The notes under the pieces were generated by a model that was given only the letters and a program-made list of their open reading frames with translations, had not been told where the DNA came from and did not search any database. The translations under genes were made by a program, and so were the position numbers. Of a stretch of DNA of 64,000 bases, positions 23,316 to 63,582 are shown in pieces (positions within the stretch are counted from its first letter, which is position 1; each line of letters opens with the position of its first letter). The stretch comes from Bacteroidetes bacterium endosymbiont of Geopemphigus sp. (GTDB lineage: Bacteria; Bacteroidota; Bacteroidia; Flavobacteriales; Blattabacteriaceae). The stretch lies in assembly GCF_002904345.1 (NCBI RefSeq), contig NZ_PEIH01000005.1:550449-614448 (forward strand), given 5' to 3'.

Positions 23316-23518
23316 AATTTTCATTGATCAAAAAATAGCACCGGTTCAGTAAAATGAATCCTACTTTGACTTCTTGTAAAGCTAGTAAACAAGCGTGGAA
23401 ATCAGGTAGGTAATATCAGAATTTTTATCAAAGAGCACTTATATAAGACTACATATGTGGCATTTACTCCCACTTCTAGTTTTAATATCTTTATTGTCTT
23501 AAGTAAAAATAACATAAG

Positions 23519-23824
23519 AAAAGCAGGCCTGTAAGCCGGATTCTGTACCTAAAAAAGGTCTTTATCATTTATCTGGGCTGAGCGTTACCGCTAAGCTCAA
23601 GCTGCCTACCCCCCGGCTACGATCGAGCCGATCTTAGCTACCGGTATACATGACATTTCACCGCATAGAGTTTACCTGATTTCACTACAGCCGAACTGTA
23701 CTTGCTTTCTGTTGCACTGGTCCTCGTCTCACGACGGACGGGCGTTACCCGCTATGCTGCCCTAAGGTGTCCGGACTTTCCTCATCTCATCTATGATGAA
23801 ACGCGATAAAGCAGCCTGCTTTAA
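23519..23824 (-). ncRNA. rnpB: RNase P RNA
   Basis: The minus strand shows the universal core: 5' AAAGCAGGCTGC, the GAGGAAAGTCCGGACACC block, ACAGAAAGCAAGTACAG-like P4/P5 region with CAGTGCAACAGAAAGCA, GGTAAACTCTATGCGGTG, and a 3' end with AATCCGGCTTACAGGCCTGC that pairs with the 5' end. It is the catalytic RNA that matures tRNA 5' ends. A TAAATTTG promoter box directly upstream overlaps the stop codon of the pruA relic. End positions are approximate by a few bases. Confidence 0.95.
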
Positions 23825-25545: not shown

Positions 25546-26460
25546 TTAAGATTTAATAAAATCATCCATAAGCTTTGATAACTTTTTTAACCAATGGATG
25601 GCGGATGAAATCTGATTCTTTAAGAAAAATAAAAGATATGCCTTTTGAATATTCAAAGCCTCGGAAAGTCCTGAAAGTTCTTTAGGGGGCAAATCCACCT
25701 GACTTGGATCTCCAATAACAATAAATTTAACATTTTTCCCCATACGAGTAAAGAACATTTTCATTTGGGCATGAGTAGCGTTTTGGGCTTCATCAAGTAT
25801 TATAAAAGCATCATTTAGTGTAGGACCCCCGCGCATAAAAGCCAAAGGCGTAATTTCAATGATTCTTTTATCGATAAAATCAGCAAGTTTTCAGAGGGAA
25901 TCATCTCGCGCAAAGCATCATAAAGAGGCTGCAAATAAGAATCAAGCTTTTCTTTAAGATCTCCAGGAAGAAAACCTAAATTTTCACCTGCTTCTACTGT
26001 ACTCAACTGCTTGTCCTTAAGTGCTTTCACAGCCAAAGCCACGCTTGTATAGATCTTACGAGTTCCAGCTGGTCCAACGGTAAAAATCAGATCTTTTTTA
26101 GCCTCCTCCACCAGCTGGGCCTGGACCATACGTTTTGGCGCGTACAAAATGTCCTTAAGGTCCCATGTACAAGGACAGATTCAGACTTCTCGAAAGAGAT
26201 CTTTTTTAGTAAAAAATTTTTTCAACAATGCTCTCATCTAAATGTTGATAATTCCAGAGATATTCCTTTAAAAATTGTATTTTATATTAAAAGTTTTCAA
26301 GAAACTGATCATCACCTGATGCCTTAAGCTGATTTCCACGGGCGATAATTTTAAGTCCAGAAAAATAATTACGGATACGCTTTAAGTTTTTGTTTTTTTT
26401 GGCCATAAAATTCATGAAGCAAAACATCTGAAAGATCTATATTTAGGTCATTCAAAATAG
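25546..26460 (-). pseudogene. phoH: broken PhoH family ATPase
   Basis: The PhoH-like P-loop protein of the RNA-processing region of many bacteria. N-terminal traces HEFYGQKKQKLK and ARGNQLKASGDDQFLENF are out of frame. Then QAQLVEEAKKDLIFTVGPAG continues into TRKIYTSVALAVKAL, where the Walker A GTGKT is changed to GTRKI; the following strand is shortened (KQLSTVEAGENLGFLPGD, with a block of about seven residues missing). A further one-base shift comes near 25855, after which [20 protein letters not shown] and [25 protein letters not shown] complete the Walker B region. Changed P-loop, deletion and frameshifts all say pseudogene. Confidence 0.88.
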
Positions 26461-40892: not shown

Positions 40893-42353
40893 TTACTGGT
40901 AATAATTTGGTGCTTCCTTGGTGATGATCACATCATGCGGATGACTTTCCTGCAAACCTGAATTAGTGATCCTTATAAAACGTCCTTTTAACATAAGATC
41001 GGCAATAGTAGGTGTTCCACAATAGCCCATACCAGAGCGCAAACCGCCACATAACTGATAAATAACATCAGAGAGTTTTCCCTTATAAGGTACACGTGCT
41101 TCAATACCTTCAGGAACAAGCTTTTTATTTCCAGATTGAAAATAACGGTCTTTACTTCCGCGTTTCATAGCGGCCAATGAGCCCATACCCACGTAGGTTT
41201 TAAACTTTCGGCCCTGATAGATAATTTCTTCACCCGGGGCCTCATCAGCGCCTGCCAGCAAGCCACCGATCATCACACATCCCGCACCTGCGGCAATGGC
41301 TTTAACAATATCTCCTGATAGCTTTATGCCCCCATCAGCAATTACAGTGACCTTTTTGATTTTAGCATATTCATATACCTCGTTAATAGCCGTAACCTGG
41401 GGCATGCCTGTGCCAGCTACTACCCGCGTTGTACATATAGAACCTGGACCCACTCCTACTTTTAGAATATTGGCACCGGCCTCTATAAGATCCTTAGCGG
41501 CCTCGGCTGTAACAATATTTCCACCTACCAGGGCAATTTTAGGATAAGCCAAACGTATCTCTTTAATTTTTTTTAATACCCCAATGGAATGGCCATGAGC
41601 AGAGTCCAGGGTAATAACATCTACACCCGCTTTTATAAGGGCTTTGACACGTTCCATAGTATCATCGGCTATACCTACGGCTGCACCCACACGCAGTCTT
41701 CCACGATGATCTTTACAAGCTTGAGGATACTCTACAAGACTGTCAATATCTCGTATTGTGATCAGGCCAAAAAGACGCCCCAGTTCATCGACAATAGGTA
41801 ATTTTTCAATACGATTTTGCAATAAAATTTCCTTAGCTTGCTCCAGAGTAGTATGCTTTCCTGAAGTAATCAGATTTTTTTTGGTCATGACCACTTCCAC
41901 ATAGGTGTCAAGATCTGTGCGATACTTAATGTCTCTGTTGGTAATAATCCCTACCAAAGTCCGGTCGGATTTTATGACGGGTAGACCCGATATGCGATAG
42001 TGCGTCATAATTCGATGCGCATCCCCAAGGGTAGACTCAGGCGAAAGGGTGACAGGATCATCAATCATACCGTTTTCGCTACGTTTTACACGATCCACCT
42101 TAGCTGCTTGCTCTGCAATAGTCATGTTCTTATGAATAAACCCCAAGCCACCTTCTCTGGCAAGAGCAGCTGCAAGCGAAGCCTCGGTAACTGTGTCCAT
42201 AGCTGCACTTACAATGGGGATATTCAGTACAATATCAGAAGTAAGAGGGCTTTGCAGGCAAGCTTCAGAGGGTAAAATCTTAGAAAATGAAGGAACGAGC
42301 AGTACGTCATCGAAGGTAAGGCCTTCTTTAATGATTTTATTGTATAATGACAT
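40893..42353 (-). CDS. guaB: IMP dehydrogenase
   Basis: A 486-residue IMPDH that oxidises IMP to XMP, first step to GMP. TIM-barrel with GLTFDDVLLVPSFSKILPSE, a two-CBS Bateman insert (LVGIITNRDIKYR, LFGLITIRDIDSL), DSAHGHSIGVLKKIKEI, KVGVGPGSICTTRVVAGTGM with the catalytic Cys, and the flap region MGSLAAMKRGSKDRYFQ with YKGKLSDVIYQLCGGLRSGM. I chose the ATG at 42353 (MSLYNKIIKEGLTFDD) over one five codons upstream. Together with intact guaA it gives a complete route from IMP to GMP. Confidence 0.96.
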   Translation of the reverse strand: MSLYNKIIKEGLTFDDVLLVPSFSKILPSEACLQSPLTSDIVLNIPIVSAAMDTVTEASLAAALAREGGLGFIHKNMTIAEQAAKVDRVKRSENGMIDDPVTLSPESTLGDAHRIMTHYRISGLPVIKSDRTLVGIITNRDIKYRTDLDTYVEVVMTKKNLITSGKHTTLEQAKEILLQNRIEKLPIVDELGRLFGLITIRDIDSLVEYPQACKDHRGRLRVGAAVGIADDTMERVKALIKAGVDVITLDSAHGHSIGVLKKIKEIRLAYPKIALVGGNIVTAEAAKDLIEAGANILKVGVGPGSICTTRVVAGTGMPQVTAINEVYEYAKIKKVTVIADGGIKLSGDIVKAIAAGAGCVMIGGLLAGADEAPGEEIIYQGRKFKTYVGMGSLAAMKRGSKDRYFQSGNKKLVPEGIEARVPYKGKLSDVIYQLCGGLRSGMGYCGTPTIADLMLKGRFIRITNSGLQESHPHDVIITKEAPNYYQ

Positions 42354-42467
42354 GAAGATTTTTACCAAGCAAATTATACAAAATCAATTATATTTTCCGT
42401 TAAGAAAATGTCTAAAAATCAGCATTGTGCCAAAAGGTTTATTTTAGCCTTTGCTAAAGAACCTGAT

Positions 42468-47892: not shown

Positions 47893-48295
47893 GGGGCTGA
47901 AACGGATTTGACAGCAAGGTCAATAAATAAGTAAGCATACTGTGCCATGTGAAGCAAGCACGTAAATCTGGCATCACAAAACACAAACGGCAACGAAAAC
48001 TATGCTCTCGCTGCTTAGTTCTGAAGTTTAGCAAGAATTAAAGCCATGTTGACATTAGATGTCGAGGTGAGATATTCCTCAGAAGCCCTGCCTATCGGCG
48101 TCTGATCAAGGAGTACCGTAAAAGAAAGGCTAGGAAAGTTAATTCCTCTGAAACTTTCCAAAATTTTACGAGGATAAGGCCTCTATAGAATGCTCTTCTT
48201 CAGTAGATGGTTGAAAATCAATGAAGAGATAAGTATGTAGAAAGCTTGTTAAGTTGCTTGTATGGACGCGGGTTCGAATCCCGCCAGCTCCACCA
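47893..48295 (+). ncRNA. ssrA: transfer-messenger RNA
   Basis: Starts GGGGCTGAAACGGATTTGAC and ends GGTTCGAATCCCGCCAGCTC plus CACCA, the tRNA-Ala-like domain with the G3-U70 wobble in its acceptor stem; the 3' CCA is encoded. The tag reading frame shows AACGGCAACGAAAACTATGC and then codes LAA before TAG, giving a tag ending NGNENYALAA. tmRNA with SmpB frees stalled ribosomes and marks the product for proteolysis. The exact resume codon (ACA or the codon after it) is not certain. Confidence 0.96.
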
Positions 48296-53539: not shown

Positions 53540-53547
53540 TACCTTTG
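53540..53547 (+). promoter_or_regulatory. -7 promoter box TACCTTTG before SRP RNA
   Basis: Exact TAnnTTTG match ending about four bases before the start of the RNA helix. Confidence 0.6.
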
Positions 53548-53551
53548 GACC

Positions 53552-53651
53552 TGGCAAGTCCCGCACAACCAGCTCCTTTTGAATCCTCCAGGGTGGGAAC
53601 ACAGCAAAGGTAGAAGGTTGTAGCGGTGTGATGCGGGTCGCTTGCCTTTTT
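53552..53651 (+). ncRNA. ffs: signal recognition particle RNA, small bacterial type
   Basis: About 100 bases folding into one long hairpin: GGCAAGTCCCGCACAACC at the left pairs with GTGATGCGGGTCGCTTGCC at the right. The apical part has CCAGGGTGGGAACACAGCAA and AGGTAGAAGG, the Bacteroidota version of the conserved GGAA tetraloop and the asymmetric internal loop bound by Ffh. A T-run follows the stem. It acts with Ffh and FtsY in co-translational targeting. Confidence 0.85.
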
Positions 53652-53673: not shown

Positions 53674-55212
53674 TTATTCCCATTCTATGGTAGCCGGAGG
53701 TTTGGGGCTGATATCGTAAGTCAGACGATTGATACCTTCTACTTCATTAAGTATCCTGGAGGAGACCTTTTCTAAAAATTCATAAGGCAAATACGACCAA
53801 CGCGCTGTCATAAAATCACTTGTGTCCACAGAACGCAACACAGCCGTATAAGCATAGGTACGCTCATCACCCATTACCCCTACGGATTTCACCGGTAGTA
53901 AAACCACAAAAGCTTGCCCTAGTTGATCGTAGAGCTCATGTGCTTGCAATTCATAGATAAAAATTTGATCAGCTTGTTGTAAAATATTAAGTTTTTCCTG
54001 TGTGATCTCACCTAAAATACGCACTGCCAAGCCAGGTCCGGGAAAAGGATGACGATATACCATCTCTTTGGGTATCCCCAAGCTCATTCCTAATTTTCTT
54101 ACTTCATCTTTAAATAAATCACGTAAAGGCTCGATGAGCTGTAAAGACATCTTCTCAGGTAGACCGCCGACATTGTGATGGGATTTAATGGTTGATGAAG
54201 GACCTTTTACGGAAATCGATTCGATCACATCTGGGTAAATGGTTCCCTGGGCTAAAAACTCAACTCCTTTGATCTTCACGGCCTCTTCGTTAAAAATCTC
54301 CACAAATTCCTTGCCGATGATCTTGCGTTTGGTCTCAGGATCGGAAATTCCAGCTAAAGCAGATAAAAAGCGCTTGCTCGCATCTATCATATGAATATCC
54401 ATGTGGAAATGTTTTCCATAGGTATCCATAACTTTTTGCGCTTCATCCTTGCGGAGCAAACCCGTATCAACAAAAATACAGCTTAGTTTTTCACCGATAG
54501 CTCGATGGATCAATACAGCTGCTACAGAAGAATCCACACCACCTGACAGGCCTAAAACCACTTTTTTATTCCCCACCTTCGTCCTGATCTGCTCAATAGC
54601 AGTTTGAGAAAAATCCCCGATTTTCCAGTTTTTCTCGCAATGACAAATTGCGAAAATAAAATTTTGCAAAATTTCTCCACCATAGGTGGTATGGGCTACT
54701 TCGGGATGAAATTGTACCGCATAAATTTTATCGTGCTCATTAGCCAAAGCGGCACTGCAGACAGCGGTATGTCCGATGACATTAAAATTTCCAGGCACAT
54801 GGTTTACCTCATCGAAATGACTCATCCAAACATTAGATTTCTCAGGCAAGCCTTTTAATAAAGGGCTTTGAGGGTCATCCACAATAAAATCAACCGGGCC
54901 ATATTCAGCTTGCCTGCCACGCGATACTTCCCCTTTAAAAACGTGTGCTATAAGCTGCATTCCGTAACAAATACCTAAAACAGGTATACCCTGCTTAAAC
55001 AGGTTTTGAGAGAGTATACAGGCATTTTCTTCATTAATCGAGGAAGGACCTCCCGATAGTATAATTCCACGTGGCGAGTGAGCAAGAATTTCTTCTAGTG
55101 GAATATCATAAGGTAATAATTCGGCATATACTCCCATCTCGCGGATACGGCGGGCGATAAGCTGGTTGTATTGTGAACCAAAATCTAGTATCAGTATGGA
55201 TTTGTGTTTCAT
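53674..55212 (-). CDS. guaA: GMP synthase (glutamine-hydrolysing)
   Basis: A 512-residue bifunctional enzyme converting XMP to GMP. Glutaminase domain: LILDFGSQYNQLIARRIREM, VLGICYGMQLIAHVFKGEVS with the catalytic Cys, and AVQFHPEVAHT with His and Glu. Synthetase domain: VVLGLSGGVDSSVAAVLIHR (PP-loop), IFVDTGLLRKDEA, and a C-terminal dimerisation domain with RHPFPGPGLAVRILGEIT ending NRLTYDISPKPPATIEWE. It is the last gene of the minus-strand purine cluster and starts 8 bases after purD. Confidence 0.97.
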   Translation of the reverse strand: MKHKSILILDFGSQYNQLIARRIREMGVYAELLPYDIPLEEILAHSPRGIILSGGPSSINEENACILSQNLFKQGIPVLGICYGMQLIAHVFKGEVSRGRQAEYGPVDFIVDDPQSPLLKGLPEKSNVWMSHFDEVNHVPGNFNVIGHTAVCSAALANEHDKIYAVQFHPEVAHTTYGGEILQNFIFAICHCEKNWKIGDFSQTAIEQIRTKVGNKKVVLGLSGGVDSSVAAVLIHRAIGEKLSCIFVDTGLLRKDEAQKVMDTYGKHFHMDIHMIDASKRFLSALAGISDPETKRKIIGKEFVEIFNEEAVKIKGVEFLAQGTIYPDVIESISVKGPSSTIKSHHNVGGLPEKMSLQLIEPLRDLFKDEVRKLGMSLGIPKEMVYRHPFPGPGLAVRILGEITQEKLNILQQADQIFIYELQAHELYDQLGQAFVVLLPVKSVGVMGDERTYAYTAVLRSVDTSDFMTARWSYLPYEFLEKVSSRILNEVEGINRLTYDISPKPPATIEWE

Positions 55213-55220
55213 AAAATATT

Positions 55221-56129
55221 TTAAGACAGACCTATGCCCTTTCTATAGAAGGTGTCTGTAAAAGAAATTTTCTTTACTGCTTCGTAGGCGTTTTTATAAA
55301 CCTCCTGAGCAGAGGTGCCTATACCTATAATATTCAATACACGTCCTGCAGAGGTGATCCAACGATCGTTCTCTTTCTCAGCCCCGGCGATATAATAGGA
55401 TGTATGTAGTGTCTCGAGACCGGTGATCTCATATTCCTTTCTGTAAGGTCTTGGATAGCCTCCAGAATCCATAACCGCAACACAAGAGTGGGCGGGCTTC
55501 GAGGAAATTTCTATGGATTCTCGTTTTATAGCCTTTTGTATCGTCTCCAAAAAATCACTCTCCATAAGAGTAAAAATAGACTGTTTCTCTGGATCTCCCG
55601 TACGTAGATTATCTTCCAAAAGATATACCCCTATTTCGGTAATCATCAGTCCAACAAAGATCACACTGGCAAAAGAAAGATTTTCAGCAGATAAACCTTG
55701 CAGGATGGGGGTCAAAATATTTTCATCAAAATCCTGCCAGATGGCCTCACTTATATGAGGATTGGTCGCAACTACCCCAATACCTCCTGTATTAGAACCG
55801 GTTTCTCCTTCACCGATTTTTTTATGATCTTTAGCAGAGAGAAAAGGGGAAATTTCCTTACCATTAAATACTGATAAAACCGAAGCTTCCTTGCCTTGCA
55901 AGCATTCCTCGATAATTACTTCATCCGCGGCACCGGGGCTAAAGATTTTATCTTTCATCATCAACTCTAGAGCTTTAAAAGAAAATTCTTTATCTTGAGT
56001 TATAATCACTCCCTTTCCCGAGGCTAAACCACTGGCTTTAATCACTACTGGATAATTCAACTCATCGAGGTAAGCTACGGCATCGGAAAAATAGGCATAA
56101 GCTGCCGTGCGCACTCCATATTTTTTCAT
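55221..56129 (-). CDS. purD: glycinamide ribonucleotide synthetase, ATP-grasp part of a split gene
   Basis: The larger piece of purD, 302 residues. It begins MKKYGVRTAAYAYF, which in intact PurD follows the N-terminal domain, and carries the full ATP-grasp and C-terminal domains: PVVIKASGLASGKGVIITQD, EVIIEECLQGKEASVLSVFN, GEGETGSNTGGIGVVATNP, the metal site as LEDNLRTGDPEKQ (E, N, R and GDPE kept) and TSAGRVLNIIGIGTSAQEVY. Its ATG overlaps the TGA of the N-terminal piece as ATGA. One extra A in the other piece's last codons would restore a single protein. It could be translated by coupling. Confidence 0.85.
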   Translation of the reverse strand: MKKYGVRTAAYAYFSDAVAYLDELNYPVVIKASGLASGKGVIITQDKEFSFKALELMMKDKIFSPGAADEVIIEECLQGKEASVLSVFNGKEISPFLSAKDHKKIGEGETGSNTGGIGVVATNPHISEAIWQDFDENILTPILQGLSAENLSFASVIFVGLMITEIGVYLLEDNLRTGDPEKQSIFTLMESDFLETIQKAIKRESIEISSKPAHSCVAVMDSGGYPRPYRKEYEITGLETLHTSYYIAGAEKENDRWITSAGRVLNIIGIGTSAQEVYKNAYEAVKKISFTDTFYRKGIGLS

Positions 56130-56449
56130 AAAATCTTTGCAAACACCTTACTGCCTTTAAGCTTCGCTGCCTGTTTATGTGGTCCGCATATGGGCAAACC
56201 TCGCTGTAGAAAAACATCTACAATGCCCTCTACCAAAAGCACTTCCGATCTCACTATGGTGAGATCTATACCTTTTTCAAGAGAAAAATCAGCTAATGCC
56301 TCAGAATCGCTCAGGAAAACATTTTCACCCATTTGAGCTGTTTCTCCATTGCCGGGAGCAAAATAGAGTCGCTCTAATTGAGGGTTTTCTAGTAATTTTT
56401 TCCCGATGGCATGTTCTCGTCCACCACCGCCTATAACAAATACCTTCAT
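56126..56449 (-). CDS. purD: glycinamide ribonucleotide synthetase, N-terminal part of a split gene
   Basis: A 107-residue frame starting MKVFVIGGGGREHAIGKKLL (the PurD glycine loop), continuing YFAPGNGETAQMGENVFLSD, DLTIVRSEVLLVEGIVDVFL and ending PHKQAAKLKGSKVFAKIL. Intact PurD reads FAKDFMKKYG here: GCAAAGATTTTATG needs one more A. The frame ends with TGA within the ATGA that starts the larger piece. In the intact enzyme this point is the link between the N domain and the ATP-grasp domain. I chose the ATG at 56449; the 19-codon extension upstream is not family sequence. Either a pseudogene in its first stage, a two-part enzyme or a sequencing error. Confidence 0.8.
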   Translation of the reverse strand: MKVFVIGGGGREHAIGKKLLENPQLERLYFAPGNGETAQMGENVFLSDSEALADFSLEKGIDLTIVRSEVLLVEGIVDVFLQRGLPICGPHKQAAKLKGSKVFAKIL

Positions 56450-58138: not shown

Positions 58139-58651
58139 TTAATGGATTTTTTTGGCCAAAGACTCAGGAGTTTCTACGGGATCTATGGTGCAAGATTTTT
58201 GAAGAATGATCTCGCTGGCATCGACCTCAGGAATCACATAATGCACTGTAGCTGCTGATTGAGTTTCCTTGTTTTTCAAAACAGCTCGGTAAACTTTCAT
58301 GTCATACATGTCCATACCTCCGTATTTAGACAAAAGAGACGGATGCAAATTTATGAGCTTTCCGGCCCATTTTTGACAAAAGTCGCCATCTAAAATGGAA
58401 AGAAAGCCAGCCATAAGGATCAAGTCAGTATCCTTTTGAAGAATACTATCGATATTTTTACAAAATTCAAGGCTTCGATCAAGACAAAAGTTTGGTATTT
58501 CTTCTTTTACATAATGCGCTAAGGCAAAACAATCTCTATCGGAAATCATCTTATAAATATTCAGATATGGAAGACGTCCATCTTCTATAGCCTGCAAAAG
58601 ATTTAGTAGATTACTCCCTTTTCCCGAAACCAAAACAGCTGTTTTAATCAT
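58139..58651 (-). CDS. purN: glycinamide ribonucleotide transformylase, shortened
   Basis: A 170-residue PurN: AVLVSGKGSNLLNLLQAIED, DRDCFALAHYVKEE, LILMAGFLSILDGDFCQKWA, LINLHPSLLSKYGGMDMYDM (the catalytic region, with the Asn-His pair) and SAATVHYVIPEVDASEIILQ. The frame stops at AKKIH, after which the same frame reads LEHKLLIKDLE and then stops again. Homologues continue in that way (LEHxLLPxxIE), so a TAA has replaced one codon and removes about 11 C-terminal residues. The active site is intact. It may still work or be read through. Confidence 0.85.
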   Translation of the reverse strand: MIKTAVLVSGKGSNLLNLLQAIEDGRLPYLNIYKMISDRDCFALAHYVKEEIPNFCLDRSLEFCKNIDSILQKDTDLILMAGFLSILDGDFCQKWAGKLINLHPSLLSKYGGMDMYDMKVYRAVLKNKETQSAATVHYVIPEVDASEIILQKSCTIDPVETPESLAKKIH

Positions 58652-58653
58652 TT

Positions 58654-59450
58654 TAAAGTGGATGTTTTTTTGAATAAAGTCTATTTAAATAATCTATAGC
58701 CTCTGACCTAGCTTGTTTCCCTGCAATAAGCGTCGGTTTTTTTTCATACTCGGCGTAATGAGCAAAAGCATACAAGTTCCCCCTTGCTTTTTTATCCATT
58801 CTATAAACCAGTACGCTTGATAGTAGCCGCTCTACCGGTCTTTACATAGAACTCCCATGCATCGGACAATTCCTCAGAAAAGAGAATATTTTGAGTATGC
58901 CTATGAGCCTCTTTGGAAACGTGCAACTGATTCTGTAATAATTTGCTAAGAAAATCCACTTGTTCCATTACAGATATCTGAAGGTTGCTTACAAGCCAGG
59001 AACGAGTAAGACCATCATTTTTTCCGGGATTTCGCGAAAGATCGCGATTTCCATAATTCCATTGATTGACATAATTCTGAAATTTCTCCCGGCCAAGCTT
59101 TTTAATGATTTCCTGCGAATACCATACGGTACTACGATGCGTCCAAATACCAGGATAAGCCTTCACATGCCACATAGGAAATCTCGCTTTATATTCTTTT
59201 TTATAAGACCACTCAGGATGAAATTCATCATAAAGGATACCGTTGTCAAAGCCCATATAAGGCAATAGGAATTTTAAAAATAGAACAAAGCGAATGGAGT
59301 ATTTGTATATCACCTTTTTCAGTAAGCAATCGCCCGTTTTGATCTTGTAAAAGGAAAGCGCTCCTTTGAGCGAAAAGAACTTCGCTTAATAAGATAACGA
59401 GCCAAAGGAAGATGAAATTTTTAATTATAGTTTTTAAATAGTACATCATT
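58654..59450 (-). pseudogene. broken class D beta-lactamase family protein
   Basis: Fragments fit a class D (OXA-type) enzyme. N-terminal: signal region NFIFLWLVILLSEVLFAQ, then SLCSIFKIPIALYGL with the S-x-x-K motif (SIFK). After a frameshift near 59270: NGILYDEFHPEWSYKKEYKA, WNYGNRDLSRNPGKNDGLTR with the YGN motif, EQVDFLSKLLQNQLHVSKEA, and VKTGRAATIKRTGL with KTG. A stop at 58801 replaces an expected Trp, and NLYAFAHYAEYEKKPTLIAG continues in another frame to a stop just before purN. The start ATG is now in frame with purM. Class D enzymes hydrolyse beta-lactams; relatives act as penicillin sensors or transpeptidase-like proteins. Confidence 0.82.
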
Positions 59451-60459
59451 TTTTTAAAACTAATCTTCTCAGGACCTTTTTCAATAGATCCTATTACAAA
59501 AAACTTCTCACCAAGCGATCTCATATATTGAAAAACACCATTCCGATCCTCAGGAGAAACCACTACAACCATACCTATGCCCATATTAAATGGACCACAC
59601 ATCTCCTCTTGAGGTATTTTACCTATGGATTGAATAAGCTCAAAAACAGGCTGTACCGGAATTTTCAACACATCGATAAGTGCATATAAACCCTCTAGTA
59701 TAATTCTGGGAATATTTTCAAGAATCCAGCCACCGGTAATATGCGCCAAACCATGAATAGTAAAACGCTCTAAAAGCCTATGGACAATATCGTTATAAAG
59801 TCGTGTAGATTTTAGTAGCGCTTCATAAAGAGAATACCCATGAAAATCTTTTAAAAGATCTTCACGTGAAAAAATCTTGCGAATAAGTGAATAGACATTG
59901 CTGTGTACCCCTGAGAAAAGCAAGCCTATGAGAATATCCCCTTGCTGAACACTCGCTGTGTCATCAATAATCTTTTCGCGCTCAACCACGGCTACGCAAA
60001 AACGGGCCACATCGTAATCGACCGATTAGTACATGCTCGGCTCTCTGAAGTTTCCCCTCCGATAAGGGCTGTACCGGTAGCCTTGCAAGCGCCCGCCATT
60101 CCGGAGATGATCTGCACAAGGCGATATCCGCGTTGAGCTTGCTACAAACGGTATAATCCAAAAAAAACAAAGTCTTGGATCCATTACATAAAATATCATT
60201 AGCACACATAGCAAAACAGTCAATACCGATAGAGGAGTATTTTTTATAATCCAGAGCAAGACGCAATTTAGTACTTACTCCATCGGCTCCCAAGACCAAT
60301 ACAAGATTTTTGTATCCCGAGAGTTGATAAAAAGCACCAAATCCTCCCAAGCCATTGAGAACATTTACATTGTGTGTCTTTTCTACGGCTTTTTTTTATT
60401 TTCGCTACTGTTCGATAGCCTTCTTCTTTATCTACACCGTCCTGCTTGTAAGTACTCAT
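59451..60459 (-). pseudogene. purM: broken AIR synthetase (purM)
   Basis: PurM closes the imidazole ring of the purine precursor. Start STYKQDGVDKEEGYRTVAKI, then a shift to MGGFGAFYQLSGYKNLVLVL, SIGIDCFAMCANDILCNGSK and LNADIA. A shift near 60130 leads to GMAGACKATGTALIGGETSE, another near 60035 to DYDVARFCVAVVEREKII after a nonsense codon. The end LAHITGGWILENIPRIILEG, PQEEMCGPFNMGIGMVVVVS is open. Some residues are altered in the glycine loop (GVHSNVYSL). The original stop is lost too: the frame runs on through SFKKMMYYL into the beta-lactamase relic. Its start overlaps the purF end as ATGA. Confidence 0.92.
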
Positions 60460-61199
60460 AAAGCCATATTTTCTTTAATAGAATTATTTTTTTGAACAGG
60501 ATAATTTTCTATAAAAAATCCAAAATAATAATCAGTACCCTGCAATATCTTCTTAAGATTCTTCACGCTCAAAAAAACCAAACTATCTACACCTAATATC
60601 TTAGCGATTTGTTTATCGGTTAAACGAGCTGAGATTAAGTGTTTCTTATCAGGGGTGTCTATCCCAAGAAAACAAGGAACTACAATAGGGGGCGAGGCGC
60701 TGCGGAAATGGATCTCCAGAGCGCCGGATTTTCGGAAAAAATCCACTAGTCGACAACTGGTAGTAACGAGTACTATGGAATCATCAATGATCACTATGCG
60801 TTTACCTTTGACTTCGCTCATTATGGAATTGAGCTTCAAATGTACACTGACAGTTCCCGAAGCTCTTGAGCAGGCGCTATAAAGGAGCGGTTGATAAACT
60901 TCTGCCACATGGGTAGTGGCCAGACGAATCTGGTTGTCACAGGTACTATAACCACGGGCGGCCTCGGTGGTTATTTTTCTCTGAGGTAGCTTTCCTGGCA
61001 AGGTCTGCTCTAGGGGTTCATTAGGATCAGCCGATCCGATTAATCGCATTGCCTGATAGACAAAAGTCCGTCCTGAAAGTGGATCACATATAGCTCCTCC
61101 AAGGCAAGTGGAGGCTCCGCCAAAAGGTTTGATTTCAGTAGGATGGTTATGTATTTCGTTTTTAAAAAGCAGTTGCCATTGCTGGATTTCGTCATCCAC
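60456..61199 (-). pseudogene. in-frame deletion fusion of purL and purF
   Basis: One open frame of 247 codons made of two genes. The first 85 residues are PurL (FKNEIHNHPTEIKPFGGAST, DPLSGRTFVYQAMRLIGSAD, LPGKLPQRKITTEAARGYST, IRLATTHVAEVY). Then a 20-residue junction leads into the C-terminal half of PurF: VSVHLKLNSIMSEVKGKRIV, DDSIVLVTTSCRLVDFF (PRPP-binding loop, with the usual RG changed to LV), FRSASPPIVVPCFLGIDTPD and YYFGFFIENYPVQ. The deletion removed most of PurL and the glutaminase half of PurF. Neither activity can remain. The original gene order was therefore purL-purF-purM. Confidence 0.92.
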
Positions 61200-61204
61200 C
61201 TTGA

Positions 61205-62062
61205 TATCGATATCTAGCGTGCAAGCATTGATCTCATCAGAAATAACCCAGTCTCTCTAGATATCCTTCAGCACGAAGAGTTTTGGAGGTGATAATGACG
61301 AGATCCATAAGTGTCACAGGTTTTTCTTCCCTTTTTAATAACGCTTGGGTGTTTTGATAGTTTTGAAAGATATTTTGCAGCGTCTCCTGAAAAATTCCCT
61401 CAAAAGCAATATTTTTTAAACAAGTAATAAAGCTCGTATGTCTACAATGGTCGGACCAGTATGTATCGAATACCCGCAATTCTGTCTCAAAAGGATCGCG
61501 TCTTTGTTGCTGAAAATAATTTTGGATAAAAGAAAGATCTTCATAGCTCATCACAAAGCAATGGACTTTATAAAAACGCTCCAGTTCATCAGATGAAAAT
61601 TGCCGAATTTTATCTATAATAGGAATTTTCATAGGAGCCGAATGGACGGGAAGCTCGAGCAATCTCAAGCCCTTCTCACGAGCCTCAACGGCGTTTATAC
61701 AATATTTTTTGACTTTATCTAAATCTTTATGGAGGTAAGTCTATCAATTCGATAAGGCGTCCGCTACGTACAATAGCATCTGCTTCTGGAGCGATGATTT
61801 TGATATATTGCGTAGCGGAATCAGCTCGTTGACCATACTGACCAGGAAGATATTCAATAGTGAAGTAAGGATACGTTGAATAAAAATTTTCATGTACCGT
61901 ATCGGTGACCTTATCGGAAAAAACGCGATAAAGCACCTTATCATAGTGCGCCTCATCAAGCTGAAAAATATCGTATATGTCGTATATACGAAGATCTTCA
62001 AAGTGTTTTCGTGAAGAGACATCAAAAGAAGTTTTTTTTTGAATATAAATTCTTTGATTCAT
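61205..62062 (-). pseudogene. purL: N-terminal remains of FGAM synthase
   Basis: Starts with an intact 111-residue segment (MNQRIYIQKKTSFDVSSRKH, FTIEYLPGQYGQRADSATQY), which matches the long single-chain PurL of Clostridia and Bacteroidota. A frameshift near 61735 is followed by YLHKDLDKVKKYCINAVEAR, SDELERFYKVHCFVMSYEDL, FDTYWSDHCRHTSFITCLKN and PVTLMDLVIITSKTLRAEGY. Another shift near 61240 leads to DEINACTLDIDIKV, the start of the fused frame. The large catalytic part downstream is deleted. PurL makes formylglycinamidine ribonucleotide. Confidence 0.9.
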
Positions 62063-62151: not shown

Positions 62152-63582
62152 TCAAACACTGAGGTCTTCATTAGGTGTATCGATTAAATCTTTATGTCTT
62201 TCCAAGAGCGGATCTACCTGTTCCTCAATAAAATTCACCGTCTGCTCAGAAGCAAAGCCTGTAAAATTTTTTGGATAAAGCAAATCCATTAGTTGCTTTT
62301 TATCGATGTTGATTTTGTTATCGTTTACTATTCGCCCAATCAAATCATTTTCTTTCCCCCGAATTTTCACTACCTGAGCAGCTTGCATGGAATGAAGACG
62401 AATACGCTCGTGCAGCCATTGACGGTCCCCTCCATTTTTTACGCCTTCCATAATAATATATTCGGTAGCCATGAAAGGAAACTCTTCCTTTATATGTTTT
62501 TCAATCATTTTAGGGTAAACCACCAGGCCGTCCATAATATTATTCCAGATTAGCAAAATAGCATCTATAGCGAGAAAAGCTTGAGGTATCACCAAACGTT
62601 TATTGGCCGAATCGTCCAGTGTGCGCTCTAACCATTGGCTAGCAGCTACCATAGCCGGGCTCGAAGAAAGCGATATGGCAAATTTCGCCAAAGCTGCGAT
62701 GCGTTCACTGCGCATGGGATTGCGCTTATAGGCCATAGCACTTGAACCAATCTGATCTTTCTCAAAAGGTTCTTCGATTTCTTTAAGATTTTGCAATAGT
62801 CGCAAATCATTGGTAAACTTATGGGCCGATTGAGCGATATTGGATAGTAAATACAATACTTGAGCATCGAGCTTACGGTCATAGGTCTGACCGGTGACGG
62901 CAAAACGTTTTTGAAAACCAAAGCGTTTTGAGAGTTGATCATCCAGCTTTTTTACTTTCTCAAAATCGCCATTAAAAAGCTCCTTAAAGCTGGCTGCAGT
63001 TCCTGTAGTACCTTTCACACCTCGAAAACGTAAGTTTTCAAAGCAAAACTCACATTCCTCAATATCCAGTAAAAGGCTTTGTAGCCAAAGGCTAGCGCGC
63101 TTGCCTACCGTGGTAAGCTGAGCCGGCTGGTAGTGTGTAAAACCCAAAGTGGGAAGTTCTTTATACTCCAAAGCAAAGTCGCGAAGGCGCTTAACAAGTC
63201 GTACCATTCTTTTAAAAAGAATCTGCATACCATCACGAATCTGAATCAAATCGGTATTATCTCCTACAAAGGCACTGGTAGCACCCAGGTGAATAACAGG
63301 CCGGGCCATGGGAGCCGCATCAGCAAGAGTATGTACATGAGCCATTACATCATGACGAAACTTTTTCTCATAATTCCTTGCTTTTTCAAAATCAATATCC
63401 TCAAGATGTGCTCTTAACTCTTGAAGCTGTTCCTCGGAAATATCCAAGCCAAGGGTCTTTTGTATCTCAGCTAAAGCCAGCCAAAGCTTGCGCCAGGTGG
63501 TGAATTTTTTGTGTGGGGAAAAATTGTAAAGCATATCTAAACTTGCATAACGCTCTACTAAAGGATTTTCATATCGATTCAC
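62152..63582 (-). CDS. purB: adenylosuccinate lyase
   Basis: A 476-residue lyase that cleaves SAICAR and adenylosuccinate. Visible: MNRYENPLVERYASLDMLYN, HDVMAHVHTLADAAPMARPV, IHLGATSAFVGDNTDLIQIR, TLGFTHYQPAQLTTVGKRAS (catalytic His), and the signature IGSSAMAYKRNPMRSERIAA. Codon one is GTG, the only initiation codon that fits the family start. With purA it gives the complete IMP to AMP branch. The active-site signature differs from SSAMPYKRNP by one residue (Pro to Ala). Confidence 0.96.
   Translation of the reverse strand: MNRYENPLVERYASLDMLYNFSPHKKFTTWRKLWLALAEIQKTLGLDISEEQLQELRAHLEDIDFEKARNYEKKFRHDVMAHVHTLADAAPMARPVIHLGATSAFVGDNTDLIQIRDGMQILFKRMVRLVKRLRDFALEYKELPTLGFTHYQPAQLTTVGKRASLWLQSLLLDIEECEFCFENLRFRGVKGTTGTAASFKELFNGDFEKVKKLDDQLSKRFGFQKRFAVTGQTYDRKLDAQVLYLLSNIAQSAHKFTNDLRLLQNLKEIEEPFEKDQIGSSAMAYKRNPMRSERIAALAKFAISLSSSPAMVAASQWLERTLDDSANKRLVIPQAFLAIDAILLIWNNIMDGLVVYPKMIEKHIKEEFPFMATEYIIMEGVKNGGDRQWLHERIRLHSMQAAQVVKIRGKENDLIGRIVNDNKINIDKKQLMDLLYPKNFTGFASEQTVNFIEEQVDPLLERHKDLIDTPNEDLSV

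Follow-up and report, generated by a model that had tools for sequence, protein, structure and literature searches.

In this Flavobacteriales endosymbiont, purD, the gene for phosphoribosylamine--glycine ligase, which catalyzes the second step of purine synthesis, is very probably a pseudogene within a collapsing purine operon. Its frame is disrupted by one −1 shift relative to intact orthologs in the same synteny, and selection on it appears relaxed in comparison with intact neighbors of the same genome (P = 1e−4). The window, i.e., the whole 64,000-nucleotide stretch analyzed here, comes from an insect-symbiont-like relative of the cockroach symbiont Blattabacterium that is midway through genome reduction, with a genome of 1.32 Mb in five contigs in a family containing genomes of 200 to 600 kb. 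The purD case is ordinary reductive genome decay.

purD is interrupted by a single lost base

Two minus-strand frames meeting at an ATGA, as described in the original prediction, were found to match PurD end to end, as follows.

56126..56449, minus strand: purD 5′ fragment, 107 aa, N-domain; its TGA end lies within ATGA; carries E98K and G67R
55221..56129, minus strand: purD 3′ fragment, 302 aa, ATP-grasp and C domains; several invariant residues altered
56126..56140, minus strand: site of the single −1 frameshift, GCAAAGATTTTATGA

The first frame (56449..56126) translates as MKVFVIGGGGREH...GSKVFAKIL and closes with TTA TGA, while the second (56129..55221) opens at the ATG of the ATGA and translates as MKKYGVRTAAY...YRKGIGLS. 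Positions 1 to 109 of the NCBIfam purD profile TIGR00877 correspond to the first piece (99.8 bits) and positions 112 to 421 to the second (259.7 bits). Neither piece reached the cutoff of 288 bits, so the one genome searched holds no single-frame match above it. A tblastn search with Blattabacterium PurD placed its residues 1 to 106 and 106 to 411 in neighboring frames, and frameshift-aware alignment to the same protein required just a single −1 shift in purD, at 56133, without any stop codon, confirming that one lost base accounts for the split. purD is a single frame in all 110 relatives examined, none of which has the same split. A search of the genome contigs with the C-terminal piece as the query matched no relatives, and one with Blattabacterium PurD did.

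The original prediction had also viewed the two frames as coupled through the ATGA. The overlap is real, but coupling is not needed to explain it. The methionine encoded by its ATG is present in 95 of 101 PurDs and is followed in this genome by AAA, so that a −1 shift just upstream terminates there automatically. The overlap thus appears to be a by-product of this Met codon after the shift, and no coupling need have evolved. The position of the break, six residues past Lys103 (Aquifex numbering) and within the conserved LEGSKxFxKxFM block, suggests that the cut does not fall cleanly between domains. Since this block bears Glu100 and Lys103, the second piece alone would be without part of the ATP/Mg site.

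In Aquifex PurD, Mg2+ is recognized by Glu100 and Lys214, and ATP is recognized by Lys103, Lys143, Glu185, Glu192, and Lys214 (PMC8880213). According to the alignment, Glu100 corresponds to residue 98 of the purD product studied here, which is now a lysine (E98K) and is glutamate in 101/101 relatives. Lys103 corresponds to residue 101. Both residues lie in the first piece, and the earlier suggestion that every metal and nucleotide motif is kept by the second is thus wrong. The second piece retains the equivalents of Asp212, Lys214, Arg287, and Glu292, and the charged substrate contacts reported for the Aquifex enzyme appear to be largely retained.

Invariant residues of PurD have changed

Fifteen of 83 invariant residues are altered in purD. 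This raw count, considered at one point as decisive for decay, is weak alone, as the presumably functional Blattabacterium PurD departs from free-living relatives at 12 to 14 of 85 invariant positions. Neighboring genes were consequently taken as controls, and the argument for decay rests on the contrast with them and on the kind of change. purD departs at 13/81 family-invariant positions, compared to 11/333 for purH, guaA, and purB together (16% versus 3.3%; Fisher P = 1e−4; 5/120 in purH, 6/168 in guaA, and 0/45 in purB). The same contrast in Blattabacterium was not significant (P = 0.58). The changes were also harsher in purD, with a mean BLOSUM62 score of −0.54 versus +1.80 in purH and +0.33 in guaA. 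The branch ratio for purB was not used, its tree being poorly rooted.

The departures at invariant positions include G67R, E98K, G171S, G262S, Y280D, and D405G. The positions of G67R, E98K, A157S, G171S, G262S, and D405G are without exception in the 101 one-frame PurDs, and the residue replaced in Y280D, like those of G67R, G262S, and D405G, is invariant or nearly so in these relatives. F107L results from the shift itself and need not be counted. At the 82 positions conserved in at least 95% of the 101 PurDs, this purD departs at 17, whereas among the others the median is 0 and the maximum 9. These comparisons point to relaxed selection on purD, independent of the frameshift. That the gene is decaying, as had been proposed, is therefore upheld, but to call this a first step is too mild for a gene with a frameshift and about a dozen altered invariant residues, including an active-site glutamate.

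The purine operon is deleted, shattered, or shortened above AICAR

As a reference, we used the intact operon of family genomes of about 620 kb, assigned to Blattabacterium cuenoti by inference from evidence that included operon and sequence. Its order is purB-purL-purE-purC-purF-purM-purN-purH-purD-guaA, and the surviving genes stand in the same order in the window. purD occupies the same operon position in B. cuenoti (purN-purH-purD-guaA), with about 51% amino acid identity over the full length; there, a single-frame purD sits in a complete operon, whereas here the gene is frameshifted, with altered invariant residues, in a wrecked one. The state of the remaining purine genes was as follows.

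40893..42368, minus strand: guaB, intact; IMP dehydrogenase, 611.7 bits (cutoff, 481.5)
53674..55212, minus strand: guaA, intact, 512 aa
56537..58048, minus strand: purH, intact, 503 aa; AICAR user
58139..58651, minus strand: purN, premature stop at 58139-58141, with homology continuing to about 58088
59453..60386, minus strand: purM remnant with two frameshifts and one stop
60456..61199, minus strand: purL′-′purF in-frame fusion created by a deletion, a 247-aa open chimeric frame
60894..62062, minus strand: purL remnant, residues 1 to 389 of about 1236 in three frames; two shifts and a truncation
62152..63582, minus strand: purB, intact, 476 aa
63610..64000, minus strand: 3′ part of purA, a gene intact across the window edge

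The deletion that joined purL to purF took out purE and purC entirely, together with the 3′ two thirds of purL and the 5′ three quarters of purF; of PurF, the final 122 aa alone survive. No match to purE or purC was found anywhere in the assembly. A second PurF match in the assembly (31% identity over the amidotransferase part) lies in a 617-aa frame that is probably GlmS. purN scored 108.6 bits against TIGR00639, under the cutoff of 150.1 bits. The expectation that upstream pathway loss would favor decay of purD was thus borne out, and the loss is wider than had been stated, with purF, purL, and purM broken and purE and purC absent. The assembly is 92% complete, and a second purine locus might sit outside the assembled part.

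Frame-aware comparison with the Blattabacterium operon detected no disruption in purB, purH, or guaA. In purL, purM, and purN, six events in 2.59 kb give a damage clock of 2.3 disruptions per kb. By a crude Poisson estimate, the absence of events from the 4.39 kb of purB, purH, and guaA has a probability of 4e−5; for purD, 2.8 events would be expected, and one or fewer has a probability of 0.23 by the same crude estimate. The lighter damage to purD therefore needs no special explanation. Counting against a pseudogene, the two purD fragments together span almost the whole gene and contain a single shift without any stop inside them, and the apparent retention of most charged substrate-contacting residues weighs the same way.

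Other features were noted in and beside the operon. The 247-aa purL′-′purF chimera could be taken for a real gene by automatic annotation. Between purM and purN, a class D (OXA-type) beta-lactamase gene survives as remnants in more than one frame (58801-59520, minus strand; NF000270, 180 bits; cutoff, 280), which are missing at that spot in Blattabacterium. purA was suspected of being broken because it crosses the window edge, and it was found intact. Upstream of purA, an ABC-F-like ATPase gene is broken into several frames (1-2777 of the adjoining stretch).

The retained genes suggest AICAR recycling and salvage

From these gene states, we infer that de novo purine synthesis from phosphoribosyl pyrophosphate (PRPP) to AICAR has been lost, purF, purL, purM, purE, and purC being deleted or shattered and purN shortened. 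Because loss of PurF would remove phosphoribosylamine, the substrate of PurD, selection on purD would then have ceased, and the purD pieces, if translated, would probably be nonfunctional fragments.

hisG, hisD, hisC, hisB, hisH, hisA, hisF, and hisIE all read open (hisG was named by NCBIfam, and those other than hisG and hisF were assigned from sequence and gene order). The histidine operon therefore probably continues to make AICAR. hpt (TIGR01203, 151.1 bits; cutoff, 150) and prs are intact. Together, the his operon, purH, purA, purB, guaA, guaB, and hpt point to probable AICAR recycling combined with salvage. Judging from this gene content, the cell would most likely take purines in through hypoxanthine phosphoribosyltransferase, and histidine-derived AICAR would be recycled by PurH, PurA/PurB, and GuaB/GuaA to AMP and GMP, which could explain why purH, purA, purB, guaB, and guaA stay intact beside broken genes. 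Such recycling yields no net purine, and a host supply would therefore be needed. The ATP/ADP translocase family PF03219 had no match in this genome, nor in any control genome, and the negative result therefore carries little weight.

Reduced insect symbionts of the Buchnera type have lost de novo purine synthesis and keep purH, purA, and purB to recycle AICAR derived from histidine synthesis. The present genome resembles them in that the genes from AICAR to IMP and on to AMP and GMP, as well as the his operon, are intact and the upstream purine genes are lost; it differs in that the loss is caught midway, with recognizable remnants in place. Literature searches on endosymbiont purD pseudogenes, Buchnera AICAR recycling, and 1.3-Mb Flavobacteriales symbionts found no paper that combined all the terms of a search. 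The window offers a snapshot, of modest value, of a symbiont shedding purine synthesis gene by gene while genes below AICAR are kept, in a genome about twice the size of that of Blattabacterium.

Alternative explanations for the split

A sequencing or assembly error in a truly single-frame purD is improbable, even though the shift concerns a single base within a short stretch of As. About 7,000 codons (21 kb) of the long conserved genes in the window are without a shift, and such errors must therefore be rare in this assembly. The other lesions of the operon comprise deletions and stops, beyond single-base slips, and the substitutions at invariant residues are independent of the shift. Moreover, a corrected base would not revive the gene, with PurF (the maker of its substrate), PurL, PurE, PurC, and PurM gone.

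A working two-polypeptide glycinamide ribonucleotide (GAR) synthetase produced by translational coupling at the ATGA is extremely unlikely, despite both frames being open, the ATGA overlap, and the retention of most nucleotide-binding residues. The purine pathway is lost above and below purD, the Glu100 equivalent in the first piece is a lysine, and G67R, Y280D, G262S, and D405G fall at invariant or near-invariant residues, while the cut lies inside a conserved block that contacts ATP and Mg. The split is private to one genome, in contrast to the one-frame purD of all 110 relatives. Naturally divided purine enzymes exist, e.g., PurL/PurQ/PurS, with one enzyme's sequence spread across adjacent frames as in purD here. 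Such divisions, however, are conserved across species with active sites intact, whereas this one is private and degraded. As this case warns, an ATGA junction and long open frames do not amount to evidence of a split enzyme where the pathway around them has been lost.

A −1 ribosomal or transcriptional slip restoring one PurD protein has a similarly minute chance of being correct: a slip at the TTA ahead of the TGA would yield a protein of ordinary length, but the junction holds no in-phase canonical X XXY YYZ heptamer and no single-base A or T run of at least 8, and the altered invariant residues and pathway loss weigh against it as well. Assembly of the two pieces into a protein with leftover or altered ATP-grasp ligase activity useful outside purine synthesis is likewise barely conceivable. 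The pseudogene reading is by far the most probable.

Elsewhere in the window, phoH is also split over two frames (25546-26147, minus strand), with PF02562 in both, and represents a further pseudogene. Three structural RNAs scored well above their gathering thresholds, namely, the class A RNase P RNA (23516-23822, minus strand), transfer-messenger RNA (tmRNA; 47893-48295, plus strand), and the Bacteroidales small signal recognition particle (SRP) RNA (53545-53651, plus strand).
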